NCBI GenBank assembly: GCA_019096065.1
Contig: JAGUCH010000009.1
Location: 3,792,001-3,856,000 of the forward strand
Direction: 5' to 3'
Origin: Paracyclopina nana
Taxonomy: Eukaryota; Arthropoda; Copepoda; Cyclopoida; Cyclopettidae
DNA: 64,000 bases
Under the pieces are notes generated by a model. That model saw only the letters and a program-made list of their open reading frames with translations, was not told where the DNA came from and did no database searches. This document shows positions 12,951 to 61,026 of the stretch, piece by piece. Positions within the stretch are counted from its first letter, which is position 1. Every line of letters begins with the position of its first letter. A program made the translations under genes and the position numbers.

Positions 12951-15900
12951 TTATGTGCTTTCCATGTTACACTCTGTGGTGACGTTGTTGTTGATTTGCG
13001 AATTTTGCATTTTCTCTTGGCGTCGCCATTTTGCTCTCCTGTTGGAAAACCAGACTTGAACGCGAGCTTCCGGTACCCTGATCATGGTGGCCAATCGTTC
13101 ACGCGTATACACATCAGGATAATGGCTCTTTTCGAACTCTGCAAGGGTAAACTCTCCAAATTAAGCAAGAGGAAGATTTCCTCACATCTAGCGATAGCTT
13201 CGATCTATATTACTTTATTTGGCAGTGAAACTTATGGAGATTGATGCATCAACTTTCAAGGCTCAGCAGAAACTCTTGCTTTTCTGCTCTTGTTCTCAGT
13301 TTGCATTTATTTGCACAAGGAAAAGTTCATTGGGATAAGGATTTGCCTCGACGCTTTCGTAATTTGTGAATAAGGTTAAAGGTTAATAATTCACCCACTC
13401 ATACACCTCTCGAAAGTGCTTATTTTTGGAAAGGATAAAATAAGGATTATTTCATTTGAAGAATTATTTTTTCACGTGACTCAGCATATTTTTTGTATAG
13501 CTTTTGTTTGTTTTTGCTCCCAATTAATTAGACTGTCTCTCAAGGACGTCTTCATATTGCAGTTTGGTCGAACTAAAACTAATATTAGTTAAACTAAACT
13601 GATTTTGGGTAAACTAAGCACTAACATAATGCTGACTAAAGTCCGGTCTTTAGTCAGTTTGGTCTAACCAATATCAGTTTTGGTTAACCTAAAAATTCGA
13701 TTTGAGAAAGTCCTTTAAGCTGAGATTTTTCTATAGCATTTTCTCAAGCTATCAAGAGGCTATCAAGAGTCCAAAGTAGTATGGATTGACATTTTTTGCT
13801 GAAATGCCGTGGAAATCAATTTGTCTTGGAAAAAGTCGATCTAGAATTTTTGGAAACAGAAACCATGACCAAAAAGTAACAATAGTACACCATTTAAGGA
13901 TAATCAATTCAAATTGAGGTATGATTGTCTTTTTTTTCCATGGGCTGCAAACAAAATTTAAAGGTGCTACGTCTTTCTCGACTCTTTCGGGATGAGCGTG
14001 AACGCGGCATTCTAAACCACCAGCACTGCTGTGGATGATGCCAAACTAATAGTTCCCTGCCACCTCAGCAAAAGTTAGACCCCAAGAAAAATCCCTGAGA
14101 GGTTGGGGAAAAGGTGGTAGGGATACATTTTTCTCTACCAATAACCGAAAATCCCAAGTTAGTTAAAATTCCAAGAACAACTTGAACAGCAAGTTCGATC
14201 CGTTGTTCAATCGCTGACCTGCTTGCAGCACGAGCTCACGGCTCAGCACTCAGTCTCAGCTCAAGTTGCTTAGTACATTCTGCATAGTTCAACTTTATTA
14301 TAATTCTGCAGTACAGCTAGTCTGCAAGAAAGTAGCCATTTTAAAATGCGTAAAAATTCATTCGAAATTGCACGAGGACATACCGCACCGGCTACGACCC
14401 CTACCGCATGGACTGGTCGCTCAAGATCACGATTGGAAGTTGAGGCTGCTCAAGACTATGAATTGAGGTAACCGCAAATTTAGACCCTGCAAGATGCAAA
14501 TTGAGGCCGCACAAGACTATGAATTGAGGCCGCTTAAGAGTACGAATTGAGACTACTCAAGACTACAAATTGAAGCCTCTATCGAGCATGCAGACTCTAC
14601 CGCAAATTGATATCAAGCTACCAATAAAGCTCGGGCAAATAAATTCACGTGGTGATTTTTTCCTGGGAAAACAAATCCCCTGGTAATTTTTTTTACCACT
14701 GATGTTGTTACATTTCGTTTTTCTTTATGAGAAATAAGCTGATCAGAGCTATTTGGAAATTGAAACCTAACCATGGATTATCGGTCACCAGTAGAGAATT
14801 GACAAAACTGATGAGGCTGTAGATAGAGGCCCTATAGGCTAGCTCAAAAAACTGTTATGGAATTATTCTATACACTAAAAGGTGCTAAGATTTGTTGTAA
14901 TGTTATGTTTTTATAACTTTCACCATTCATGGCGCTAGCGCGTCCTTCAGTAATATAGTAGTATAGTAGCATAGTACAAGCCGCGCTGCCTAACCACACT
15001 TTCACCTAGCAGGATGTACAATGCAATTTCACCTTGACAGTACATTGTATATACAGTGCTTGGTTGAGAAATAAACTCAGTTGTGGCTTTGTACGAGAGA
15101 AGTCAAGGTATTGCTATAGACACCAAAATATACAACAATTGGTGGCAGCCACTTACCTACAGCCCTGGAGGGAATGAAGAGTGAGTGATGCTGTGTTCTA
15201 TTTAAATGGCTGATAGTGAGGACGAATATTTTGAGGAAGAATATTACGAAGAGGCTTCATCGGAAGGAACAATTCAAGCTACTGCTCCACCACAAGACGA
15301 TACTACAGAAACCTCCGCATTTTCCCAACAATTTCTGTTCAATATGGCTCAGCGTAATATCAAGGCAATTGACGTACCCGAATTTAGTGGGGACCCGGCA
15401 GTTGACAAGCTGCAAGCACGAGCATGGGCTAGAAGGATCGACGATTTACGAGCCCTTGCCAACGACAACATACCAGCTGGACAGCCGCAACGGTGGACGG
15501 ACGAAATGACGGCCATGTATGCTGCCATGGCACTCAAAGCCAAGGCAGCACAATGGTATAACACCCTAAAGGAAGAGGGTTTTGCTCCTAAAAAGTGGAG
15601 TGGAGTATCTGGTCTGAAGAAGGAGTTCCTGGATCATTGGCACCATGAGGCCACTTTAGCCGAACAGTCCGCAATCGAGGACAGCCTGGTGCAGGAGGCA
15701 TCAGAATCCGTGCGGGATTTCTATGACCGTGTAAAAACTGGAGTCATGACCCTAATGGAAACTTTCATCGTCCTTGGTGAGGGCGAGTACGCCACAAATG
15801 ACGCTGCCGTAGAAATGTGCAAGAGGAGCGCATATGTGTTCGCATGCCGGCGAAAGTTCATTCAAGGTCTGTTACCTGCCATCAAGAAGCAGGTGATCGT

Positions 15901-18900
15901 GCATGACATCACGGACCTTAAGGAAATCTTTAAGGTGGCTAAGCGTGTAGAGGCCTCATTGTCAAGTGAAAAGAAAGCCACCGTACCAGTCCCTGAAGTC
16001 CATGCTGTGGAGCAAGCCGACAGTGCTCAGGAGAGCAATCCTCACGACCAGCCTCTGACACTAGGAGCACTTGTGAATCTCATCAATGGCAATGGAGCGC
16101 GAGGACAGGACCGAGGACAAGTGCGAGGACAAGCCCGAGGACAAGTGCGGGGTCCAGCAAGTGGACAGTTCCGAGCCAACGTGGTCTGCTGGTATTGCAC
16201 CAAGAAGAATCATATTGAGGCTGAGTGCTTTTCCAGGCAGGCAGATGCTGCTAAGGGCATGTACAACCCAAGGCCTGGCAGTAAGAGAGCAACAGAGCAA
16301 GAGGCAAAGAAGGTCAATGAAGTTCGTGCCTCCTACCATTCCAACCCTTTAAACTGGTAAACGACCAGGGTGGGCTCCGCACCACTGGTCGTCGCAAGGT
16401 CGTTGAACTTTTCACGCAATCACAAGTTTCAGCCTGCTATCCTCGAATGAGAATACCAAACGACCTTTTGTATCAATCCACAGCCTTGGAGCCACCTTTG
16501 AAATGTTGTTTGACACTGGCTCCAATATTTCCCTGTTATCGCGTATGGCATTCAGGAGAATTGCCCCCCAACTAAGACCTCAGAGAATTACAAATGCTCC
16601 GATGTTACGTGCAACATGTGCTTCCGGAAACCCTTTAAGGATCAATGGACTTTATGAAATAGACTGTATGATAGAAGGCCGACAGTTGAAGTGGCCATTT
16701 TATGTGTGCGAGGGACTCGCACTTGATGGGATCGTGGGTATTGACCTGATCCATGCTACCGGCTTGTTTTATGATCCCATATCGATGGAGATCCGCTCTG
16801 CAAATAAGATACAACTTGAGGCGAGAACTCAGAAGAAGACGTACATACCGGCCAGAAGTGTTGCTACAATCTCTGTGCAGCTAAAGAACCAGGACAATGC
16901 GCCAATAGGCCACTTTGAAGGATGTCTCCAAATAAGCGATGCCGCCCAGCTTTGCAAGGAATATTGCCTCATCCGCTCTAATCAACAAGGAATCGCTAAT
17001 ATTAAGGTTACAAATGCAGGATTATTGCCTATTGAGTTAGACAAGGGTTCTTTTGTGGGGCAAATTTTCAGTGTTGATAAGATTGTCCCTGTTCATGATG
17101 TGTTCTTAAATGATAAAAATGTTTTGGGAGGCCTTCTAGGCAGGTGGAGGACTATATTCTAAAGCATGCAAATCTTAATCATCTTCCTCCTAATTTACGT
17201 CAGAGTTACTTGAAGTGTCTACTTCGTAATTCTGACGTTATTTCCACTTCAGAATTTGACTTGGGTGATTGCACCCTGATGAAACACAAAATTGACCTAC
17301 ATGACCACCGACCAGTTCATGCCAGACAATTCCAGATTCCCATGTCACATCTTGATGAAATCAACAAAAGCATTGAAGAATGGCTTAAGATGGGCATTGT
17401 GGAACCCTGCGATTCTCCCTGGAACTCAAGTATTTTCTGTGTGCCGAAGAAACTGCCCGATGGGGGTACTGGTTGGAGACCAGTGGTGGATTATAGAGGC
17501 CTAAATGCAAAAACAGAGCCCTCTAGCTACAGACTCCCTCTTATTTCTGAATGTTTGGATGACATAGGATCATCAGGTACCCGTTTGTTTTCGCAGCTTG
17601 ATCTTCGACACGGATTTCACCAAATGCAATTGGCACCATCTTCAAGACCCTACACAGCTTTCACTATACCTGGAAAGGGCCAATACAGCTATATTCGGGC
17701 ACCCTTTGGCTTAACAGGGATGCCACTTACCTTTCAACGAATGATGATGTGTGCTTTCCAAGGTCTGACGCCTTCCCGTGTATTGATATACCTGGATGAT
17801 GTGCTTGTCAAGGGTAGTGGGCATGAAGACATGTTAGTGGGCCTTGAAGAATGTTTTGCGAGACTTCGGAAGGCCAACCTAAAGTTGAATTTACCCAAAT
17901 GTAGTTTTGGAACAGAATCTTGCACTTACTTGGGTTTCACGTTGACCCCTGAGGGCTACAAGCCAAATCGAAGGAAATTGGATGCTATATCGAATGTGAA
18001 GCCACCCTCTAATGTCAAAGAAATCAGGCAATTTCTGGGTCTAACTAACTTTTTCAGAGCGTGTATTCCTCAATTTAGCAGACATTCAAAGGAATTGTCT
18101 CGTCTTACTTGTAAGGACAGTGGATGGAAGGGCGGCCCTCTTCCTCCAAAAGCAATGAAATCTTTTGAGATTCTGAAGAAGATGCTATGTATGGAACCTG
18201 TGCTAGCCTATCCCAAACCCGGCCTAGATTTTCATCTCTATGTTGATGCCTCTCAAGGTGCTGTTGATGCCGATGATGGAGGCCTTGGAGCAGTACTTAT
18301 CCAATATCAAGATAATAGTCCACGAGTAATTGGTTATGCCTCAAGAGGTCTTCAGAAGCATGAGAAGAACTACACTCCGTATTTGTTAGAACTGCTAGCC
18401 TGCACATGGGCAATTGATCACTTTGCAGTTTATTTAACTGGTAACCCATTTACGTTATACACTGACCATAAGCCATTAGAGAAGTTGAACAAGACACATT
18501 CCAGAACATTGAACCGCTTGCAGCAACAGATGTTAGAACACAATTTTACGATGCAGTATTGTCCAGGAGCAGAGAACCCTGCTGATTATTGTTCGAGGAA
18601 TATTCCTGAACTTTTGCGAGGTGGTGAAACCCACAGTGTCGCTATTGAGGCCATGGAGGACATGGCAGCTATGAAGAAGCTACAATCTACAGATTTGGTA
18701 GTTGCGGCCTTACTTTCCTTTGTCAAACAAGGACTTGTACCCAGACAACCTGAGTTGAAGCGAATTATTAGAAGATACGGCCCTATTTGTGAAGTCAAGA
18801 ATGACTTGTTGTTTGTGAAGAGTGGGCCTTTGGACAAATCAGTGTTGGCAGCACCGGCTGTTTGTCATGCTGACATTATAAGTGCTGCGCATGCCGCCGT

Positions 18901-21900
18901 TGGGCACAAGGGCATCTACAAAACCAGTGAAAGAATTCGCGAGCAGTATTTTTGGCCTAGTTTACTGGCTGATGTTGAGGAATACATCAGTTCATGTTGG
19001 AAATGTGACAGAACCAAACCTAAGCAATCACAGCCAAATGTGGAATTGCTGCCCCACCAGCAACCAAAGGGCCCCCTGGAGCGGGTCCATGCTGACCTCT
19101 TTGGACCTTTGAGGGATTCAGATGGAAAGAAGTATATTTTGGTTATCACTGATTCTTTTAGCAAGTATGCAGAGTTTGTTGCTCTGGAGAACAAACAACC
19201 TGACACTGTTGCTGGGGCCATTTTTAATCGATGGATTGCAAGATTCGGCTCGCCAGCTGTGCTCATTACCGATGGAGGGGCAGAATTCACATCAAAGTTG
19301 AGTCAATCGCTTTATGATCTGCTCCAGAAAGACAAGCGCAAGACCAGCCCTAGCCACCCTCAGTGCAATGCGGCTGCTGAAGTTATTAATAAGCACATTA
19401 TAAGTTACTTGCAGAAGATGCTTGATACATCTTCTCCTTTGGAATGGGAACCCCTTCTCCCTGCGCTTCAACTCTCCTATAACTGTGGTGTGAGTAAGGC
19501 AACGAAAATGAGTCCGTTTTTCCTCCTTTTTGGCGTGCATCCCAGAACACCATTAATGGATCCAAATCTGGTTGACAAAACCTATTATGGGGAAGACTAC
19601 ATCAGTGAAATCGCTAGACGGATGAAGATTGCCCGTCAAGTTGCTATGGAAAGCAACATATCTTATCGTGACTCATACAAGCAGCTCTATGATGCCAAGA
19701 TCAAGCCAGAAGACTTTAGAGAAGGGTTATTGGTTTGGTTGGATCGCCCGGAACTTCTGAAAATCAATCCAAAAATTCGATCAAGGTGGGAGGGACCTTA
19801 TGTTATTGTGAGTCTCCAGGACACAAATGCTTTGATTCAACATCTTTCCACTAGCAAATCCAGATATGTTCATTTAAACAGATTACGTGTCTGTAAATCT
19901 ACTCCTTCTAAGCCACTGGCTCAAGCAACAAATGACTTACCAGAGACCCTGCCTGAAACTTCATCTTCCAGAGATCCTGCCCATCCAGACACAGGCTCAA
20001 AAGGAGGCTACATAACAATTGAAGATGATGACGTTATCATCATGAATCCGCAAGACCCTCCACCAGCACCCATTCCTTTCAAATCAGAGGAACCAGCTGC
20101 CAGTATTGCCTCTCCGATGACGACAACACCTCCACCTATTAAGCAAGAACCGAACTCTCCACCTGCGGAGGAGGTACTCATTCATGACGATGTGCATGAA
20201 CCCCATGCACCCACTGAAGATGATGAACCACCAGACTTACCATCAAGAAGTAACCCTGGCTCTCCTAGGAAACTACTCAACCGTTTCCGTGACAGCTTCC
20301 GAGGGGGACGAGACCCCACAAGCTCATTGACACGCAATCAGGCTAGAGCTCAACGAGTTTTGATAGAAGACCAGCCTTTACCAGCCAGGGCGCCAGAATA
20401 CAAGCCTGGCCGGGGGCGACCTAAGAAAAAATGATGTCTGCCTTAACATGACTTGGTCATAATTATCCTGTTTGACCTGACCTGACAAACCTGAAGTTTG
20501 ACTTTACACTTTCTAACTTTTATGACTTGGTGGTGGTTTTCGTTAATACCTTCATCCCCCTGTTAACAACAGCTTTCTTTAGCTTGGGAGGGATGTTATG
20601 TTTTTATAACTTTCACCATTCATGGCGCTAGCGCGTCCTTCAGTAATATAGTAGTATAGTAGCATAGTACAAGCCGCGCTGCCTAACCACACTTTCACCT
20701 AGCAGGATGTACAATGCAATTTCACCTTGACAGTACATTGTATATACAGTGCTTGGTTGAGAAATAAACTCAGTTGTGGCTTTGTACGAGAGAAGTCAAG
20801 GTATTGCTATAGACACCAAAATATACAACAGTAACTTGTTGGCGGAATTTGCGTAAGCGACCATGCGCTCTAAATATATTTTAGCCATTCGCTCATTCAA
20901 AGCGCCAAAATGTAAGCACAATAAAAATATCAAAGCTTGAAAACACCTTCCCCCCTATGCTGGCGCCATCAAATTGTGTAGTGGCAAAACGCCTGAACTT
21001 AGCCTAGGCTATAAAAAGACTAGACTGCATGCTTCTCAGGTTGTAAATTAGCCAGACAGTAAATGATCTAGGATTGTTTACCTTTTTCAAGTATGGCGAC
21101 CTGAGAGGTCACAAACGAGGTTCTAGAACGTTGGAATTTACGTTTTGATCGAGGCCCAATGCAATCCTCTTCCATGGTTGTGCTGCTTGGAGTGCGATCT
21201 AGAATTAATACGCATCAAATGCATTGAAGCTGCCATAGTAATGCATCCATTCAGGCGTGATTTGTGATTACATTGTGAACCGCATGTTCAGTCATGTCTG
21301 AAGCTGATAAAGAAGAAAATGGGCGCACGCGTTCACATCATCATTTACAAATGTTTCCGCTGCTTTCTAACTCTCATGGGGCTGGCGCCAACCCTATTTT
21401 GCACCTCATCTTACCGAGCTCCGAGGAAATATGATGCTGATTCTCATTTGCGATAAGCGGAATGTTGTGGCCGCCAAAAGGTTGCTGTTGGCACGAATTA
21501 TTCTGGGCTGAAATCTCGTTCAAGGCAATCGTCACGATTTCTCCGTTCGGCTGGAAACGTTGGCTGCTCCTCCATTTGAACTCACTAAAAATACCACAAT
21601 TCAATTCTCCTATTAGAATGACTATTTTAAGACAAGTTGAAAAGTGAAAATAAACAAGTTGAAATGTAAAAATGATTTGAAAGCTTTTTTTGGAATCAAG
21701 TAATTTCCATAATGCACGCCCATCTTACACTAATTAACGTATCATTTGTGGTAATTTGCTTGCAGTTAGACAAATAAATTATGAGCCGAATAATTGAGAT
21801 AAATAGCATGCTTACCTCGCTTCGTCAATCACATGATGATGAAGATGGTGTACATGGCGACCAATCTCAGCCTCTTCAATGCTACCATTTCTTAGAACTC

Positions 21901-26570: not shown

Positions 26571-29500
26571 ATGCGAAAACTCGGTGCACTATCACCTGTC
26601 AGATTGGTGTACCAATCTATAGATAGCATTAATGCATTGATATCTATGCAAATTGTCGAGCATGGATTCTCGAAGACGTTGCTCAATTTCAAGCCTTCAT
26701 TGTCGCAACTCCCAAGGGAGTTGCAGACATTATTAATAAAAAGTGCAGAGAAAAGCCTGGATCAGGTGTACACAGTGCGAACTTTGCTCCTTATTTGGAT
26801 GGCTTGTGTGGAAAATGGGAGTATCAAAGAGATATTAACGCCAAGATATCTCTACAATGATGAAGATGGTCGAAAATTCATTCTGAACAAGCTGGGCCAA
26901 TTTGGACAATTGGCAGCGGACAAAGTGGTCAAGTTGTCATTTTTTATGTACAGCTTCTACAATCATGGCAAAGCTGGCAGCAAAGGGTTCGAGTTCACTT
27001 TGAAAGGTGAGAATCGCCGAAAAAGGAGGAATGATATCCTGTCAAAAAATGAAAGCAGGCTTTCTCCAAGTAGCAAGCCCAAATAACCTCCACAATCTCC
27101 TATAAAGCTCTCAAAAGAATAAAGCTTCACTTCTCTTCGCAGAAGCACCTAAATATGAAAAAATCTCAATTTTCAAAACTGCTACATCAAAAATTACAAA
27201 TTATACCTGAGATCCCTCGCGAAATGAATGAGAGGCCCCAGTAATATTTTGATTGGTTGGTATTGAACTTTGGGGAAATGCTTTCCATTGAGTGGTTCTG
27301 CAATTTGGCTTGAGGCAGCCAAAATCTTTCAACTCAGCTTGAATGTCAGGGCTGTTAAAGGACATGCTAAGAGCTTTGTACCTAGCAAATGTGTCATTGC
27401 CTCTACATAATTCCCGACCTGCTTTTTTTGGCAAATGGAAATTCCAAGGCAAATTGCAATTTAGCTTCATTCCATAATATTCATCTATGCATTCTCCAAG
27501 CTTCATTGAATTATCGTCATGGCAATCATGTTGCGCTTTTTTGAGCCTTTGAGTAGTGATTTGCTGCAGATCTTTGAAAATGAAGGTTTGCCTGTAAACA
27601 AAGGATTCTTCGTCTTTTGTTGGATCTAGGATGTAATGAAACCTGTAATGTCCAGGCTCATGAAGATGAACTAGCAATTGGTGTGCTTTCCAATCCTTAG
27701 AATAAAATTCTAGCTAAAAATGGAGACATCATAAATAAATTTCTAACTAGTTAGTTTGAAATTGAGTTACATCAACCATTTTGTTATTGGGAACTTCTCT
27801 TAAAGGGCTCTTAATTAGGGCACAAATGACTGTCCGGTAGGGCGATGTTGCATCTGTTTTGGGATAAAATGACCAAACATCTTGCATCGTTTTGTTAAAA
27901 GTCTTCTTTAACCCATTAGAATCAGCTAGTAGCACCGCATCCCTAATAAAAGTAAGAATTATGCTATAGTACTGTATATGTCCTTATTATGCATGGTGCC
28001 CTAACAATTTTTTGAATTTTTCTTCCAATAGCAAGTAGCCAAAGTACTCAGACTGAGTGACATTAATTTGAGCCTGTACTTCTTCAAAGGTTGTAATTTC
28101 GGGCTCTTCAGTATACATTGGATTTCTATGAGGCTTTCTGCAGACTGAAATATCAGGAAAATGGACTTGTTCATCAACGTACTCCTCGATAAATGTGGTC
28201 TCTTCTGACAAATACTTATCAATTGATTTGCAAATTATTACAATGCAAGTAATATTTAATATAATCACTAGCAATCTTCGAAACACTACTTGTCTGGACA
28301 TTTTGATGAATACTCTTCACCATTCGATTTTGAGGTATAGGTTTTGTTAGTGAATTAACCCACCCTTTGTTCAAAATGAAAACTCTTGAATAAAGGTAGG
28401 CGTAGCCGAGTTAAGGACAAACAAAAAGATGATTACATCAAGTTTTATTGATCATGTCCATGAAAAAGGCAAATGTGCGTAGTTGTCAGAACATTGGGGA
28501 AATAAACTATTAGGAGAAATCATTTGAAGAAAAAGAAAGCTTTTCTCGAGCCTTGGAATTAAATTACTCCACTGCTCGTTTGCAAATGAAACCATTATCT
28601 TGGTCATTGGCATCATCCTTGGCATCCCAGGCAAACTTCAAGTCATAATTCATATGTGCATAGGGCTGGCTGTTAGGTTGATTTTCCACAAAATCCTTAA
28701 AAGCCATTGGTGCACCTATAAATAGACATTTTCTGAATCAACTTATATCTTTTAAGGAGCTTTTTGAGTACAGTACCAGTGACCCATTGCATAGTCTTGT
28801 CTCGGTTAGCATCGAGTCCTCCTAGCCAATAATCCGTTCCATCCTTGGGGTTGATGACGTTCAAGACAGATTTGATCCAGTCATTCTCCTCTTTGGTGAG
28901 GACATCGGCCAAGTAACCTCCAACCTGATTGCATTCCTCCTCTGCCTTCAAAAATGGAGTGTGGTAGCTGGTGAACATGTAGCAGAATCCTTTGTAGTAC
29001 ACCCATCCAAGTTGTCCCCTGCATTCCGGAGCGGCCGCCCTCATATCTCCGTCCTCTCTCATGAATCCCGTAGAAAAATCATCCAACTCCCGTGGAAGCC
29101 TCTCGATTTTGGCAATTGGAGATGAAGCTCCATATGCCAAGTCAAGGATGGCAAAAATGCCTATAACGATTAAAGCTAGAGCCTTCTTCATGACTTATTG
29201 TAGACTTGAACGAGCTGTGGTGAGGTCAATTTCTGAACTGACTGGAGATGTGAAGCATGTTATCTCTATTTATAGGAGTTGTCATGGGGATTATTGAACA
29301 ATGCGGGCAAGGTGCTAAAAGGATTTTTCCATACAAATCCTGGACTTTACTTAGACAAACATTTTTTAGAGGAACCCAATATCTCTTAAGTCCCAGATCA
29401 TTATGTTTGCAGCTGGATTTTTGTGCTTGTGATCTCATATCGAAAAATTTCATTACAGATGATCAATTGCAAGATCCGAGGCTGATGCTGCGACCTTTGG

Positions 29501-30549
29501 AACAAGACTTGCTTGCGCAAGTTATGTCCAAATTCACCAATGTGGAAACTTTGGTGCTGCCCACAGTGGCCAATTCAGAATTGCTGGAAGTCATCTCAAT
29601 GACATTGAGCCAACTCAAGATCCTGGATATAAGCTGCAGCACTAACGTCACCGATTACTGTGTCATGTCCTTGGCCGGCAACATGTCAGTGGTGAAAATA
29701 TCATTAGAGCAAATATTTTTGGAAGGCACTGGTATTTCCTCAGATGGACTTGTCATGCTGCTAACCAACGTAGCAAAGCTGGAAGTGGTTGAGTCATCTC
29801 TTGTGGAGAGAGCATTAGACGTCATTGATGAAAATCAAAGATTGAACCTGAGGAAAATCACAGTGGGCAGGTTCTGGAGGGGCGACAACGTGCTCAAGAA
29901 ACTGGCCCACTTGTGCCCAAGATTATGCCAACTGGTGTTGCCCAACTTGAGCAATGACCAATGTGGTTTGTTAGACAATTTTTCTCACTTGCCTGAACTG
30001 GCTCACATCCACGTTGGACAGGTGAAATTCGAGTCACTGTTGCCGGCCTTAGTGACACTGGGGCAAAAGCTGAAAACTTTCACCTATTCAAATTTCACCG
30101 AGACCGTGGATGTGATGAGGATCACGAGAACTTGCCCCAATCTTGAATCTTTGGCCTTGAATTGCGGATGCTTAATGGCCAGCACTTCTTCATTGGAAGT
30201 GCCCAAAAAGCTGCAAGACATCAGGCTCAATGTGCATGCATTTATAGCCAAAAGTGTCTGGACGAGGTTACTCCAGGACTGCTCAGACCTGGCTTACTTG
30301 GACATGACACCTGGAGAAGGTTTAAATGACCAAGCTTTGAATGAGATCATGAAAGACAGCCCTGAGGCTATGCTTAAATTAAGGTCTTTCATTGTGCGAG
30401 GCCGCCATACAGGGGGAGACGTGAGCTTGACAGAAAAAACCGTTGAGAATTTGATCATGAGATGTCCTGGCTTAAAATGCATTGGTGATTGCTCCACATG
30501 GTCCATATGCCCCAATTCATTCAGTGAATTCCTGCAATTTTCAGCCTAA
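26571..30549 (+). CDS. Leucine-rich-repeat protein, possibly F-box-like (2 exons)
   Basis: Exon 26571-27006 ends AAAG at a strong donor GTGAGA; exon 29459-30549 follows an ACAG acceptor. Phases fit (G plus AT), giving 508 residues. The start is uncertain: later ATGs in exon 1 are possible. Residues 35-60 contain SLSQLPRELQTLLIK, reminiscent of F-box starts. Exon 2 holds repeated LRR units of the F-box/LRR type (VETLVLP, LKILDISCSTNVTDYCVMSL, LCQLVLPNLSND, LESLALNCG, LAYLDMTPGEGLND). Such proteins usually pick substrates for SCF ubiquitin ligases, but that role is inference here. The 2452-bp intron holds the DEG/ENaC and C-type lectin genes on the other strand, and exon 1 overlaps the last channel exon by 44 nt. 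AATAAA at 30556-30561. Alternatively two separate genes. Confidence 0.7.
26963..28301 (-). CDS. DEG/ENaC-family sodium channel subunit, short form
   Basis: Exons 28301-28006, 27942-27771, 27713-27207 and 27148-26963 give 386 residues. First membrane segment near residues 8-28, followed by VHFPDISVC, the family's FPAVTIC motif. The cysteine-rich ectodomain includes LNCNLPWNF and ends before the second membrane segment, IGDCGGYLGLLLGESLLSFFD, which contains the GxS selectivity filter (GES) and the family pattern GGxLGLxLGxSxLSxFE. Such subunits form trimeric, amiloride-type sodium channels. Odd points: only about seven residues precede the first membrane segment, so the His-Gly gating motif is missing, and the protein is shorter than usual (450-700). 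The gene is nested in the LRR gene's intron, 262 bp from the lectin gene on the same strand. Confidence 0.86.
28564..29191 (-). CDS. Secreted C-type lectin-domain protein
   Basis: Exons 29191-28777 and 28715-28564 give 188 residues. A signal peptide (residues 1-21, hydrophobic ALALIVIGIFAILDLAYG) is followed by a linker with PRELDDF and one C-type lectin domain (about residues 57-187): C.GQLGWVYYKGFCYMF, AEEECNQVGGYLADVLTKEENDWI, DYWLGGLD, then QWVTG, ENQPNSQ and NGFICKR. The QPN triplet takes the place of the EPN/QPD sugar-binding motif and the downstream WND-like site is not clear, so calcium-dependent sugar binding is uncertain. Such proteins act in recognition or immunity. It has a TATA box and initiator upstream and a minus-strand AATAAA (28444-28449) downstream. 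Nested in the LRR gene intron. Confidence 0.93.
29236..29274 (-). promoter_or_regulatory. TATA box and initiator of the lectin gene
   Basis: On the minus strand TATAAATA (29267-29274) is followed by TCAGTT (29236-29241), the arthropod-type initiator, with +1 near 29239, about 48 nt before the ATG. Spacing of roughly 30-35 nt fits a TATA-Inr core promoter. Confidence 0.65.
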
Positions 30550-55415: not shown

Positions 55416-58074
55416 CTACATATTTCTTGCAAGCCTTATGGTAAAGAAATATACAATTTCAACTGCAGAAATGAAGCTGAAGCCAAGGCAGAGACCAAGC
55501 AGTCCTCCAATTTGGGAAATGTATTGAATGAAAGTCATCCTGAGCTCCCTGGAAAACTCAAAAACTGTTGTGGTTTCAAAAAAGAATGTTACCATTGCAA
55601 TGTCTTTGTCATATGCATTGTATGTTTGGGGCTCATTCTTATACGCAGTGAAAACTTCTGTGCCAGATGCAGCAGGGTCGGCAAATTTCCTCAGATTGGT
55701 CTCCACAAGCTGGCTTATTTTGTCTGGAACTTGGTCCACTTCTTTTTGATATTGATCCAATACTTGTTGACCCCAAATGGGAGGCTTGATGAATTTATTG
55801 AAGTCGCACAAGTAACTTGTTCCCAAGTTTTTGTAATCACACCTCCTGAAAGGGGCTGCAGTCACAGATGCTGAATATATTGTATAACTGCAGTCTGGTA
55901 AGCAATATGAGCATTCAGCTTCAGAAATATTGCTCATATGCTCCTTAAAAGTTTTTGCCTCCCATGGGTCACATATGCGAGCCAATGATGAGCTGTTCTT
56001 TGGAAAATACCAAGGGATGCAGGGATCAGAAGAATTCATCTGAGTCAAGATAAACTCATGTTAAGTTTTAACATTGATAAAAATATGGCTTGAAAGCCTT
56101 ACCTCCTTCATGGCAAACAACATGGAGCATTCCAGCATGCAATTTGCTTGAGTATAGTTTTTGTGTACTTCAAGCCTCTTTTCTTGTGGGAACAAGCAAT
56201 ATCTTTTGCCACTCTCTACGCTTGAAATGTCGGGTGAAGCAGTTACTTTGGTTGCACTCATGGATACAATGTTATTATGCCCAGGCCTCAGCAAAATGGT
56301 TTTTCTTGTAGTTGTGGGATATTGGTTATTTGCATCAATGATAGCATAGAACCCATCAAAATCTTCAGACACTGTGCCACCAGATAAAAAGTTTGTGTGA
56401 GCATCCAAAATGACTGTTAATCCCTTGGCTCTTCCTGCCTCAGGCGTTGGATTCTTTTCTAAATCTAGCTTGAATCCTTGAGGAAAGTCCGCTTTTTCAT
56501 AACTCATATTTTTGTCGCGTTCTTGCATGCTTTTCACAATGTCTTGGTATTGTCCATCTTTGAACATGCTCTCTGCTGCTTCCATGTTGAAAGTGCAGCA
56601 CATTCCTTTGTCAGTTGGAAAGGTGGTGAAAATCCTTGAACAAGGAACTCTCACCCCTTTCCAAAAGCAATACTTTAACAGGCCGTACTGAGAGGGACTG
56701 GAAGAGGTAACTCCTTGTACATCAAAGCATGGCAGTTGGGTATACCATAGAATTTCAAAGAGGCTCTTGTAGCTAGTTTGCAAATTCATGTTTCTAAAAT
56801 TTGCTGAGTAAGTGGCCTTTGCCATTGCAGCTTGTTGCTCTAATTTTTGCTTTTTGGACTTATCAAATACTACATCAAGTGTTGGGTCACCTAATGCTCG
56901 TTTTTTTCTCTTTCCAGCTGGGACTACTTGGCTAGCATCCTCAGAACAGTTGACTGGAACTCTGTAGCATAAATAATTGGCCTCTGCCTCGCACTCAACT
57001 ACTTCATATTCAAATTTGCCATATTTTGAGCTGGATTGCCAGGCTTTCACGCAATATTCATCATTGAGACCAGTAATGTTTGGGTGGTTAAAGCCATCAA
57101 ACTCATACATTTCGAAAAAGTTATAGCCTGTATATCCATAGATCATATCATATTCTGGGTCCAAAAATGAGCCAAGCCAAAAGCTGCTGCCATTTACTGA
57201 GCTAAATATCCCTGTAGCTGCAATAAAAGCTGTGCAAAATATTCAAAAGGCTGTAAAATATAGCTTACATTTGAATAATGCGTCATATAGCAAATTTCCG
57301 TACTCTCCGAAACCCCCAAAAGTTACCTTGGAGCCCCCATAGTAGTCACAAAGTTCTTCAGTTCCTTTGCCTTTTCCAAGGTTAAGAAAGCAAGGAGGTG
57401 GGTCGCTAATGAACCAAGCATCTTTATCAGACACCCAAGGACTCTCACAAGTAGCCGGTACATCGATGCAAGATGTGCTTGGATCCGTGATGATCTGAGA
57501 TTTTAATGTCTCGGTTGGGCTGTCTGATGAGAATACATTCACCATACTAGCAGGGGAGGCTGTTGCCCCGGGATACAATGTACTAGTGTAGTTATCTTTG
57601 AATTGGTCTTTTTCCCAATCAGTCATTGCTGAAACATCCTTTCCAATTTGTGTAAGATAATCATCAAATTGCTTTTCCAATGCCTTATTAATAACATCTT
57701 GAATGAGTCCTTGGCTGCAAATTGTAATAGCAGGATATCTGATCTTGCTCAATGGTAGGCCTAGTCAATTTTTCCGAAAATACTTCAAAGCTGCCACACT
57801 AAGAAAAAATACTATTATCACCAGTAGTTGAAACAGATGTCAAGATGGGACTATCCTTCCAATGAGTGTATGCCTCTACAGACCAAAATATGCCAAGACC
57901 TGTGAAAAAGAGAACCACCAAGAACCATAATACTCTTTCTATGATGGTGATTGCCTTGTCAAAAATATAGCCAAAACCATTGATAGTGGTAGAGGCTGCA
58001 AATTGATAGGTCGTTTCTTTGCAAGCATTTAGGGGTTGGCATGCTTTCCTGCGAGGCTTTGTATGTCCGACCAT
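55416..58074 (-). CDS. DEG/ENaC channel subunit with inserted C-type-lectin-like domain (copy 1)
   Basis: Exons 58074-57822, 57760-57269, 57217-56103 and 56039-55416 join to 827 residues. First membrane segment at about 48-67; after it LSKIRYPAITICSQG (FPAVTIC motif). Between about 195 and 340 lies a lectin-like domain: LCDYYGGS.V, EYGNLLYDAL, SSFWLGSFLD, YCVKAW, VVECE....NYLCYR. Then KRKKR (about 351-355), a furin-type site, followed by the usual ectodomain: SLFEILWYTQLPC, GMCCTFN, GLTVILDAHT, RPGHNN, ANCMLECS, and the second membrane segment GGLLGLCLGFSFISAVEI with selectivity filter GFS. Such subunits form sodium-selective trimers. The N-terminal His-Gly gating motif is Asn-Gly (INGFG). 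Poly(A) signal at 55366-55371 (minus). Tandem with copy 2. Confidence 0.92.
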
Positions 58075-58334
58075 GGTTAGGCCTCAACTATCAACTAATT
58101 ACTTCAGTGAGTTTGAAAACTACCACAGCATATGGTCAAATGTCAGTTTTACTGCTGTTATATTGCTCCATTAATAAGGTGGAAGACTCGTTCAAATAAA
58201 TGTATTTGCAAAGAGTGTTAAGGGTGCATAGTGAATAAATGGGGGACAGCTCAATTGATTAATATAATGTAGATGTATAATGAATTAATGATTTGTTCCA
58301 GTCATCAAAAGCCAAATGTTACGATGGGCATCAT

Positions 58335-61026
58335 TCAAATACTTTTGAAGAGCTTAAAAGTGAGATAGTAGAATATTTCCAGGAATGAAATGAAGCTAAA
58401 TCCCATGCAGAGACCGAGCAGCCCTCCCATTTGTGAGATGTATTGAATTGTGGTCATTCGAACCTCCCTTGAATACTCGAAAACAGTAGTGGTGTCGAAA
58501 AAGAAAGTCACCAGTGCTATGTCTTTTTTGTATGCATCATACTGAGGGGACTCTTCATTTTCAGCAGTAAAAACCTCTTTGCCAGCGGCTCTGCTGTCAG
58601 CATAATTACGGAAATTGGATTTAATGGTGCTACTTATTCTTGATGGTGTGTCTCCCAATTCTTTCTTATATTGCTTCAATACTTGTTGTCCCCATATGGG
58701 AGGATCTGTATTATCATCAAAATTGCAGAGTTGGCTTGTTCCCAGGTTTTTGTAGTCACACCTTCTAAAAGGCGCTGCTGTTACAGATGCTGAGTAGAGT
58801 GTAATGCTACAATCAGGCAAGCAATGTTTGCATTCATCATCAGAAGTGCTGCTCATGTATGATTTAAATTCCTTCGCTTCCCAAGGGTCACACAAACGAC
58901 TAGTCGCTGTGCTGTTGATAGGAAAATACCAAGGAACGCATGGATCACTAACATTCATCTGAAAAATAAAGCTCTTAAACTTCTGATTAATTCTTGACTG
59001 CAGTTTTACCATTGAGATGGCAAACCTCATGGCACATTCCAAAATGCAATTAGCTTGAGTGTACTTTTCATGAACCTCTAGCTTCATTTCATTATGGAAC
59101 AAGCAAAATCTGGCGCTTGGGTCAATGCTTGAAATGTCGGTTGAGGCAGTTACTTTTGAGGCACTTAAAGACACAGTGTTAGTGTGACCAGGCCTTATGA
59201 GGACCGATTTTCGAGCAGTTGCTGGGTATTGATCATTTGAATCAATGATGGCATGAAAGCCATCAAAATCTTCCACCACTGAGCCACCTGACAAAACATC
59301 TGTGTGAGCATCAAGAAGTAAAGTTAACCCTTTTGATCTTCCTGGTTCAGGTTTTAGATTGGGTTCAACAAATTTTCCATATTCTGGACCAAATGCCATC
59401 TTGTCCAAACTCATATTTTTGTCACGAATTTGCATTTTCTTAATTATGTCTTGATAAGGACCAGACTTGAACATCTCCTCGGCTGCCTTCATATTGAATG
59501 TACAGCACATTCCTCTGTCAGTTGGGAAAGTGGTGAACAGTTTTGAGCAAGGCATATTTATACCTTTCCAATTGCACTGCTTAAGCAGAGAATACTCATT
59601 GAATGTCTTGGATGTAACCCCTTCAACATCAAAGCATGGGAGCTGGGTATACCACAAAATTTCAAATAAGCTCTTGTAGCTTTTTTGAAGGTTCATTTTT
59701 CTAAAATTAGCTGCATAGGTGGCCCTGGAACGTTTGGCACTTTGTTGCAACTCCTGCTGTCTAGCCTTAACAAAAACGGAATCTAAACTGGCATCAGCAA
59801 CTTGTCTTTTTCTTCTTGCTCCAGAAGGAGGAGCAGGAGAACTGCCACAGCTTTGAGGGAGTCGAAAGCAAAGGTACAGAACATCAGTGGTATTCTCACA
59901 GGAAACCACAGCATATCCAAACTTAGCATACTGAGGCAATTTCCAAGCTTTTACACAGTATGACGTGTACGGATCCAAGGCAGATACATTTGGCTGAACG
60001 TTTAAGCTGAATTCAGGAATATCAGAAAATGCTTCATAAGCATAAGGAGTTGTGCTGTAGATTTTGTTCTCCTTTATGTCAATGTATGCAGAAAACCAAA
60101 ATTCAGAACTATTGATGTTGCTGAAAATTCCTAAAGATTCAAGAATAAAAGCAGTGAAAGAGGAAAATACCCCAAAATGTGATAGCTTCCATTTACCTCC
60201 ACTAAGGAGATTGTAAAAATCAGTGCCCTCTCCCCCTTTGGCGGTGAAAGCAATTTTCGAACCACCATTTTCATTGCATAGCAAAGCAGAACCAGCAGCC
60301 GTTCCCAAATTTGCAAAACAGGGTAAAGGTCCATTTGTTGAGTTGGAGCTTGGCCTAATCCATGGGTTCTCGCACGTATCAGGTACAGAAATGCATGTGG
60401 CATTTGGATCAGTCAGTATCTTGGATTTCAAAGTTTCTGTAGGATTGTCTGATGAGAGCACACTGACCATGCTGTAAGGAGTAGCTGTGGCTCCTGGATA
60501 CAGCTTTTCTGTATAGTTTGCCATGAGCTTATCTATCTCCTGAGCTGAAAGTGATGGCCCATTATTGATTCCAATGCTTGAGAGGTATTCCACGAATTGG
60601 TAGGTTAATGCAGCATCAATGACATTTTGAATAACGCCTTGGCTACAAATAGTTATAGCAGGAAACTTGATGTTGCTGATGGGCAATCCTAAGATTTATT
60701 TGTTGAAAATAAGCAAGGTTTTAATTTAGCTCAAATTAGCTCTTACCTGTGGTCTTGATGGATGTAAGCACTGGGCTATCCTGCCATTGAGTATAGGACT
60801 CATAGGACCAGTAGATGGCCAAAGAGGTGAAAAATATCACTGCCAAAAGCCACAGGAATCTTTCGAAGCCATGAATGCTGTCACTAACTGTGTAAGATAC
60901 CCCATGGATGGTTGTGTTCTCTCCAAATTCATGAACTGTGCTTGAGCAGCCCTTACAAATTGAAGAGCAGCCGCCTTTTCTTTTAGGAATTTTGTACATT
61001 GCACTAGACGGTACGGTCGAAGTCAT
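58335..61026 (-). CDS. DEG/ENaC channel subunit with inserted C-type-lectin-like domain (copy 2)
   Basis: Exons 61026-60747, 60688-60197, 60130-59010 and 58958-58335 give 838 residues; exons 2 and 4 (492 and 624 nt) have the same lengths as in copy 1. His-Gly motif present (IHG, residues 41-42); first membrane segment about 57-75; NIKFPAITICSQG; lectin-like domain about 205-347 (LCNENGGSKI, SSEFWFSAY, YCVKAW, VVSCEN, LYLCFR); furin-type site RRKR (about 363-366) and a second basic site KRSR; GMCCTFN; GLTLLLDAHT; ANCILECAM; second membrane segment GGLLGLCMGFSFISFLEI with GFS. The 66-nt and 51-nt introns (60131-60196 and 58959-59009) are multiples of three without stops, so the gene can be read through as one frame, but paralogue alignment and splice sites support splicing. 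Confidence 0.92.

Follow-up and report, generated by a model that had tools for sequence, protein, structure and literature searches.

The present analysis deals with two adjacent genes, hereafter genes A and B, arranged in tandem on the minus strand of a 64,000-nucleotide stretch (the window, to which all positions refer unless a contig is named) of contig JAGUCH010000009.1 from the copepod Paracyclopina nana. Each gene consists of four exons and codes for a subunit of the DEG/ENaC family of channels, and each contains, between the first of its two transmembrane segments (TM1 and TM2) and the cysteine-rich channel core, an insert which is well supported as a C-type-lectin-like domain (CTLD) and which is followed by a furin-type motif. 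The features of the two genes are the following, all on the minus strand:

58335..61026, minus strand: gene A, a DEG/ENaC subunit with a CTLD; exons 61026-60747, 60688-60197, 60130-59010 and 58958-58335; 838 amino acids (aa); GT-AG introns, one frame
60808..60858, minus strand: TM1 of gene A, aa 57-73; hydrophobic stretch, judged by eye
59838..60383, minus strand: predicted CTLD of gene A, aa 196-355, split by intron 60196-60131; from conserved cysteines and FW pair, hhalign, fold order and weak VIA-align rows
60131..60196, minus strand: intron inside the CTLD of gene A, 66 bp, in frame and without a stop; lacking in 7 aligned relatives
59805..59816, minus strand: furin-type motif RRKR of gene A, aa 363-366, 58 aa ahead of LPCFDV
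59493..59642, minus strand: start of the channel core of gene A, LPCFDV to GMCCTFN; from sequence motifs and alignment
58395..58427, minus strand: start of TM2 of gene A with GFS; the TM2 region aligns to Pickpocket 26
55416..58074, minus strand: gene B, the tandem paralogue; exons 58074-57822, 57760-57269, 57211-56103 and 56039-55416; 825 aa; GT-AG introns, one frame
57883..57933, minus strand: TM1 of gene B, aa 48-64; hydrophobic stretch, judged by eye
56937..57458, minus strand: predicted CTLD of gene B, aa 186-340, split by intron 57268-57212; cysteine pattern as in gene A, included in the A/B-type profile
56898..56909, minus strand: furin-type motif RKKR of gene B, aa 350-353, 58 aa ahead of LPCFDV
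56586..56735, minus strand: start of the channel core of gene B, LPCFDV to GMCCTFN; from sequence motifs and alignment
55476..55508, minus strand: start of TM2 of gene B with GFS; from sequence motif

Channel identity of the gene pair

The original prediction of two complete DEG/ENaC subunits in tandem is borne out by the exon structure and by the matches to the Pfam family ASC (PF00858), which reach E 3.6e-77 and 260.8 bits for gene A, and E 3.1e-73 and 247.8 bits for gene B, with a curated cut-off of 23.6 bits. The ectodomain and TM2 display the ASIC-like fold that marks members of the DEG/ENaC family, and the GFS triplet at the start of TM2 is presumably the GxS triplet of the selectivity filter. 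With respect to the gene structure, all six introns of genes A and B are of the GT-AG type, measure 51-66 bp and occupy matching positions in the two paralogues. Gene A can also be read from its FPAITIC motif to its end as a single open frame of 786 codons, introns 2 and 3 being in frame. Since the 66-bp intron inside its CTLD is both in frame and devoid of a stop, a retained-intron form with 22 additional residues is possible for gene A, whereas the counterpart of this intron in gene B contains a stop. The two N-termini differ ahead of TM1, where gene A has a His-Gly pair (TTIHG) and gene B an Asn-Gly pair (TTING); the HG motif matters for gating in ENaC.

The C-type-lectin-like insert

In each gene the insert comprises about 160 residues located between the strand that follows TM1 and the cysteine-rich core, so that about 340 residues separate the FPA motif from the CxW motif in spliced gene A. 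The motifs announced earlier (LPCFDV, GMCCTFN, FWFS or FWLG, CVKAW and YLC) are all present, but the length had been put at about 140 residues, and FPAITIC occurs in gene A only, gene B having YPAITIC. The order of the cysteines is that of the long form of the CTLD: the N-terminal hairpin contains two, the first helix and the long loop one each, and the last strands a further two. No variation of these six cysteines or of the FW pair is seen across the 12 inserts of a set chosen by eye as complete.

The assignment of the inserts to the CTLDs comes through their relatives. The homologue search provided 79 proteins, of which 60 were aligned with genes A and B (62 members) and 55 with the frame read from the window. 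The profile of the A/B-type inserts matches the inserts of channels from metagenomes with E 5e-8 (hhalign), and the latter match ordinary CTLDs of the same genome with E 1.3e-9. One of these relatives, P0080, combines within a single protein a Lectin_C match above the curated cut-off and an ASC match, the combination that had been proposed as a check, and the inserts of P0079 and P0080 occupy the same slot and possess the same cysteines as those of genes A and B. For the profile of the P0079 branch, 16 sequences were tried, P0099 and P0101 were dropped, P0083 and P0087 came out truncated, and P0086 and P0093 probably have wrongly placed ends. Other relatives in the database, such as P0011 (938 aa, from TM1 to TM2) and P0008, also contain an insert and a channel core within a single protein, and may or may not be spliced models; the CTLD region of P0011, used as a query, retrieved no homologue other than P0011 itself. 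A scan of prokaryote genomes gave 16 pattern matches, none of which was confirmed as a relative.

Direct comparisons are less eloquent, although the similarity to CTLDs exceeds chance. Neither insert alone has a Lectin_C match in Pfam at E<=1, and searches of PDB sequences with both inserts yielded nothing relevant at E<=10. Lectin_C was found at E<=5 in 3 of the 12 inserts of the wider set (best 8e-5) and at E<=0.1 in two of the 62 aligned members (best 0.002). Compared directly with 20 ordinary CTLDs of the genome, the A/B-type profile of nine inserts obtains a modest score of 24.4 (E 0.0013, probability 18%), to be compared with a best score of 15.2 among 200 column shuffles, whereas the 12-member profile reaches 36.2 versus 15.6 for the best shuffle. 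The profile check suggested by the original prediction gave no Lectin_C match for the two inserts by themselves and succeeded by way of their relatives.

The template-free model, in its own residue numbering, displays over the insert a strand (126-132), two helices (133-142 and 156-165), a further strand (198-206) and three final strands (246-253, 258-265 and 273-278), and this modelled succession is that of a CTLD. The mean predicted local distance difference test score (pLDDT) per ten-residue block is 70-85 over most of the CTLD stretch; lower values are found at the end of the stretch (63) and for the read-through intron with its immediate neighbourhood (47-62). A Foldseek search with the isolated domain gave nothing at E<=0.001, although the first row was rhodocetin, a CTLD; the second row was one of the chains of a complex that includes thrombomodulin, and the other 48 listed rows were unrelated. 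With the whole model, the chains listed by VIA-align were all of the channel type, a result that is uninformative on the CTLD. Taken together, the weak profile and fold matches of the insert comprise CLEC9A, LOX-1, CD23 and rhodocetin.

Because of these profile-profile links, of the Lectin_C match of P0080 above the Pfam cut-off and of the fold order of the model, the inserts of genes A and B are well supported as CTLDs, as far as sequence and model can tell. A simple exon shuffling was also considered for their origin and is not indicated, since an intron splits the CTLD and none occurs at its ends.

Furin-type motifs, sugar site and the slot of the finger

The furin-type motif next to the CTLD had escaped the original prediction. 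Among 81 proteins (the 79 homologues, A and B; two without a detectable core were left uncounted), an R-X-K/R-R motif occurs between the CTLD and the channel core in all nine A/B-type members, 58-78 residues before the core. Of the 49 proteins with 110 residues or more ahead of the core, 22 have the motif somewhere in that part; downstream of the core, five such motifs were counted in 32,678 residues. In a second set of 52 homologues, the stretch before the core reaches 200 residues or more in 20 P0079-type proteins, whereas in the other 32 it is shorter or no core was found. Ten of the 20 have the CTLD flanked by motifs on either side and 19 possess one or more, while genes A and B each have a single motif upstream of the core. 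As read from the sequence, the motif is placed in the finger region, the location expected of a furin-activated ENaC-like channel.

A calcium-dependent binding of sugars by these CTLDs is unlikely. The WND motif, which forms a calcium/sugar half-site in classical C-type lectins, is absent from all 12 inserts, whereas, among 20 ordinary CTLDs of this genome, a WND-type pattern of somewhat looser definition is present in 10 and one of the EPN/QPD type in 11. For the other half-site, a QPN triplet precedes the long-loop cysteine in gene A only, gene B having HPN; P0003 has EPD, but near the second helix and off the site. With WND missing from every insert of the set, a protein or peptide partner is more likely than a sugar. 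The CTLDs also diverge faster than the channel, with 41.6% identity between A and B over the CTLD versus 65.5% over the core, and 62-84% versus 82-94% in seven of seven other close pairs, which were chosen by hand and for which the CTLD was taken as a fixed stretch around FW. Such a divergence fits changing partners, but also a weak constraint.

Depending on the relative, other domains occur in front of the same core, e.g., a PAN domain in P0054 (29.0 bits, cut-off 21.4) and a ricin-B-type lectin domain in P0104 (29.7 bits, cut-off 25.6), the latter with RKRR in between. P0104 also exceeds the cut-off of PF03498, which we take to be another family of ricin-B-type fold. In P0088, two CTLD-like inserts follow each other in tandem, each with furin-type motifs on both sides; neither matches Lectin_C at E<=0.1. 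Among the ASC loci of this genome, part of which were retrieved, a protein search with gene A pointed to three more loci of the subfamily (C1 at about 11.44 Mb, C3 at about 6.63 Mb and C7 at about 5.05 Mb), whose channel segments each match at E<=1e-45 with 43-48% identity to gene A. The C1 gene possesses an insert that is CTLD-like by its cysteine pattern (no Pfam match at E<=0.1) and is followed by RKKR, and the C3 gene a Thr/Pro-rich stretch with RRKKR and no recognisable CTLD. It is tempting, though decidedly tentative, to consider the finger domain of this clade as a cassette slot that exchanges recognition modules (one or two CTLDs, PAN, ricin-B-type), often bounded by furin-type sites; the outcome would be a large family in which the channels are primed by a protease and the receptors can be changed. 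If so, the fastest-diverging CTLDs would set the ligand specificity, and the family would represent a new class of directly gated chemoreceptors or of channels for self or partner recognition. A slot that accepts other domains would have a bearing on the origin of new ligand-gated channels.

Some further observations concern the surroundings. Another cluster of DEG/ENaC genes (contig C4, about 9.0-9.2 Mb; L013:5492-6208, L008:1420-2100 and L012:2704-3390) has a short cysteine-rich LNR/Notch-like motif before the core, GDGFCDDYTN...DGGDCC, complete in L013 and L008 and represented by its second half in L012; Pfam Notch matches one of the three pieces, at E 0.0045 and under its cut-off. The ASC gene with the genome's best single Pfam score (L011:2308-4650, contig C9, about 200 kb from genes A and B) also has a long stretch from the post-TM1 strand to the core. 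In the window itself, an ordinary Lectin_C match (28760-28957, minus strand, E 2.5e-8) lies some 26 kb away from genes A and B and next to an open frame (29254-30549) that is leucine-repeat-rich by eye, and open frames at 15206-20434 (plus strand) resemble, by eye only, a Ty3/gypsy-type retrotransposon with long terminal repeats.

Proposed mechanism and comparison with known systems

Channels of the DEG/ENaC family are opened by protons, peptides, force or proteolysis. While the architecture of genes A and B is well supported, the mechanism that we infer from it has, in our estimation, about an even chance of being right: the two genes would code for protease-primed, partner-tuned sodium channels of the pickpocket type, with a finger that carries a CTLD and then a furin-type motif. 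The subunits would assemble into ordinary trimeric cation channels, and on their way to the surface they would be cut by a furin-like protease at a point separating the CTLD from the channel core. The CTLD, lying on the upstream side of the cut, would remain attached and occupy the margin of the ectodomain, in the place taken by the GRIP domain in ENaC. The opening of the channel would then be changed by a movement of the finger against the thumb, brought about either when a protein, a peptide or a surface partner binds the CTLD or when the CTLD is released. With a recognition domain in the finger and a furin-type site next to it, the opening of the pore through movements of finger and thumb, caused by a bound partner or by a cleaved module, could be tested directly.

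The CTLD might instead be a passive adhesive or assembly module that anchors the channel to the extracellular matrix or the cuticle without any sensing of ligands, in the manner of the mechanosensory tether proposed for degenerins. The PAN and ricin-B-type domains in the same slot belong to domain types that are often adhesive or binding, and the nearest solved relative is Pickpocket 26, a type that acts in mechanosensation; cutting at a motif that separates the tether from the channel would, however, sever the mechanical link unless disulphides or contacts hold it, and we regard this account as possible but rather doubtful. The furin-type motifs could equally serve to remove the CTLD, which would be cut off and released or lost in maturation. 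In half of the 20 P0079-type proteins the CTLD has a motif at either side, which would permit an excision like that of the inhibitory tract of ENaC; A and B, however, each have a single motif ahead of the core, and removal is an unlikely explanation.

Two other explanations concern the nature of the insert, and both appear very improbable. That a classical lectin with calcium-dependent sugar binding makes these proteins sugar-gated channels, as had been envisaged, would agree with the CTLD fold and with the QPN and HPN triplets before the long-loop cysteine. It is contradicted by a WND pattern that is missing in every insert and frequent, in its looser form, among ordinary CTLDs, and by the position of the EPD triplet of P0003 away from the site; sugar gating was dropped as the principal interpretation for want of WND. 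Hardly better placed is the view of the insert as a fast-evolving, cysteine-rich elaboration of the finger or GRIP region that merely resembles a CTLD. The lack of direct Pfam matches for A and B and the modest score of the A/B-type profile would suit it, but the slot and cysteines shared with P0079 and P0080, the latter above the Lectin_C cut-off, the topology of the model and the shuffle controls speak for a CTLD.

As to the protease-primed, partner-tuned channels proposed here, a full-text search of the literature, judged by titles and the starts of abstracts and with subscription papers and preprints outside its coverage, revealed no DEG/ENaC protein described with a C-type lectin domain. 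The layout, for which the original prediction knew of no standard family, is shared by metagenome relatives such as P0080. The polycystin-1 family also has a CTLD in a channel-related membrane protein, in a different channel family and with another topology. Compared to classical C-type lectins, the inserts share the common cysteine pattern and the strand and helix order of C-type-lectin-like domains (Lectin_C; CLEC9A, LOX-1, CD23 and rhodocetin), and differ from them by the lack of the WND calcium/sugar motif and by being embedded in a channel. Pickpocket 26 (PDB 9pzn), which gives the best sequence match among solved structures (family profile, E 2.3e-41), shares with genes A and B the channel core, two TM segments and the post-TM1 FPA motif. 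It has only about 90 residues from FPA to CxW (its FPA piece being aligned at a non-significant score), versus about 340 in gene A, and the solved chain therefore has no room for the insert.

The position of the CTLD, between the first helices of the finger and the helices before the core, would correspond to that of the GRIP domain, with a helix numbering that we take partly from the general anatomy of ASIC. Another DEG/ENaC protein with an added domain is EGAS, named for an added EGF domain and not for a CTLD, and reported to give no currents above control (PMC10424705). A parallel in finger position, the feature on which the comparison is based, is offered by vertebrate ENaC, which has an extra protease-sensitive segment in the finger and furin sites; this segment, the GRIP domain, lies between helices a1 and a2 and is described as a small core of beta strands, not a CTLD (PMC6197857).

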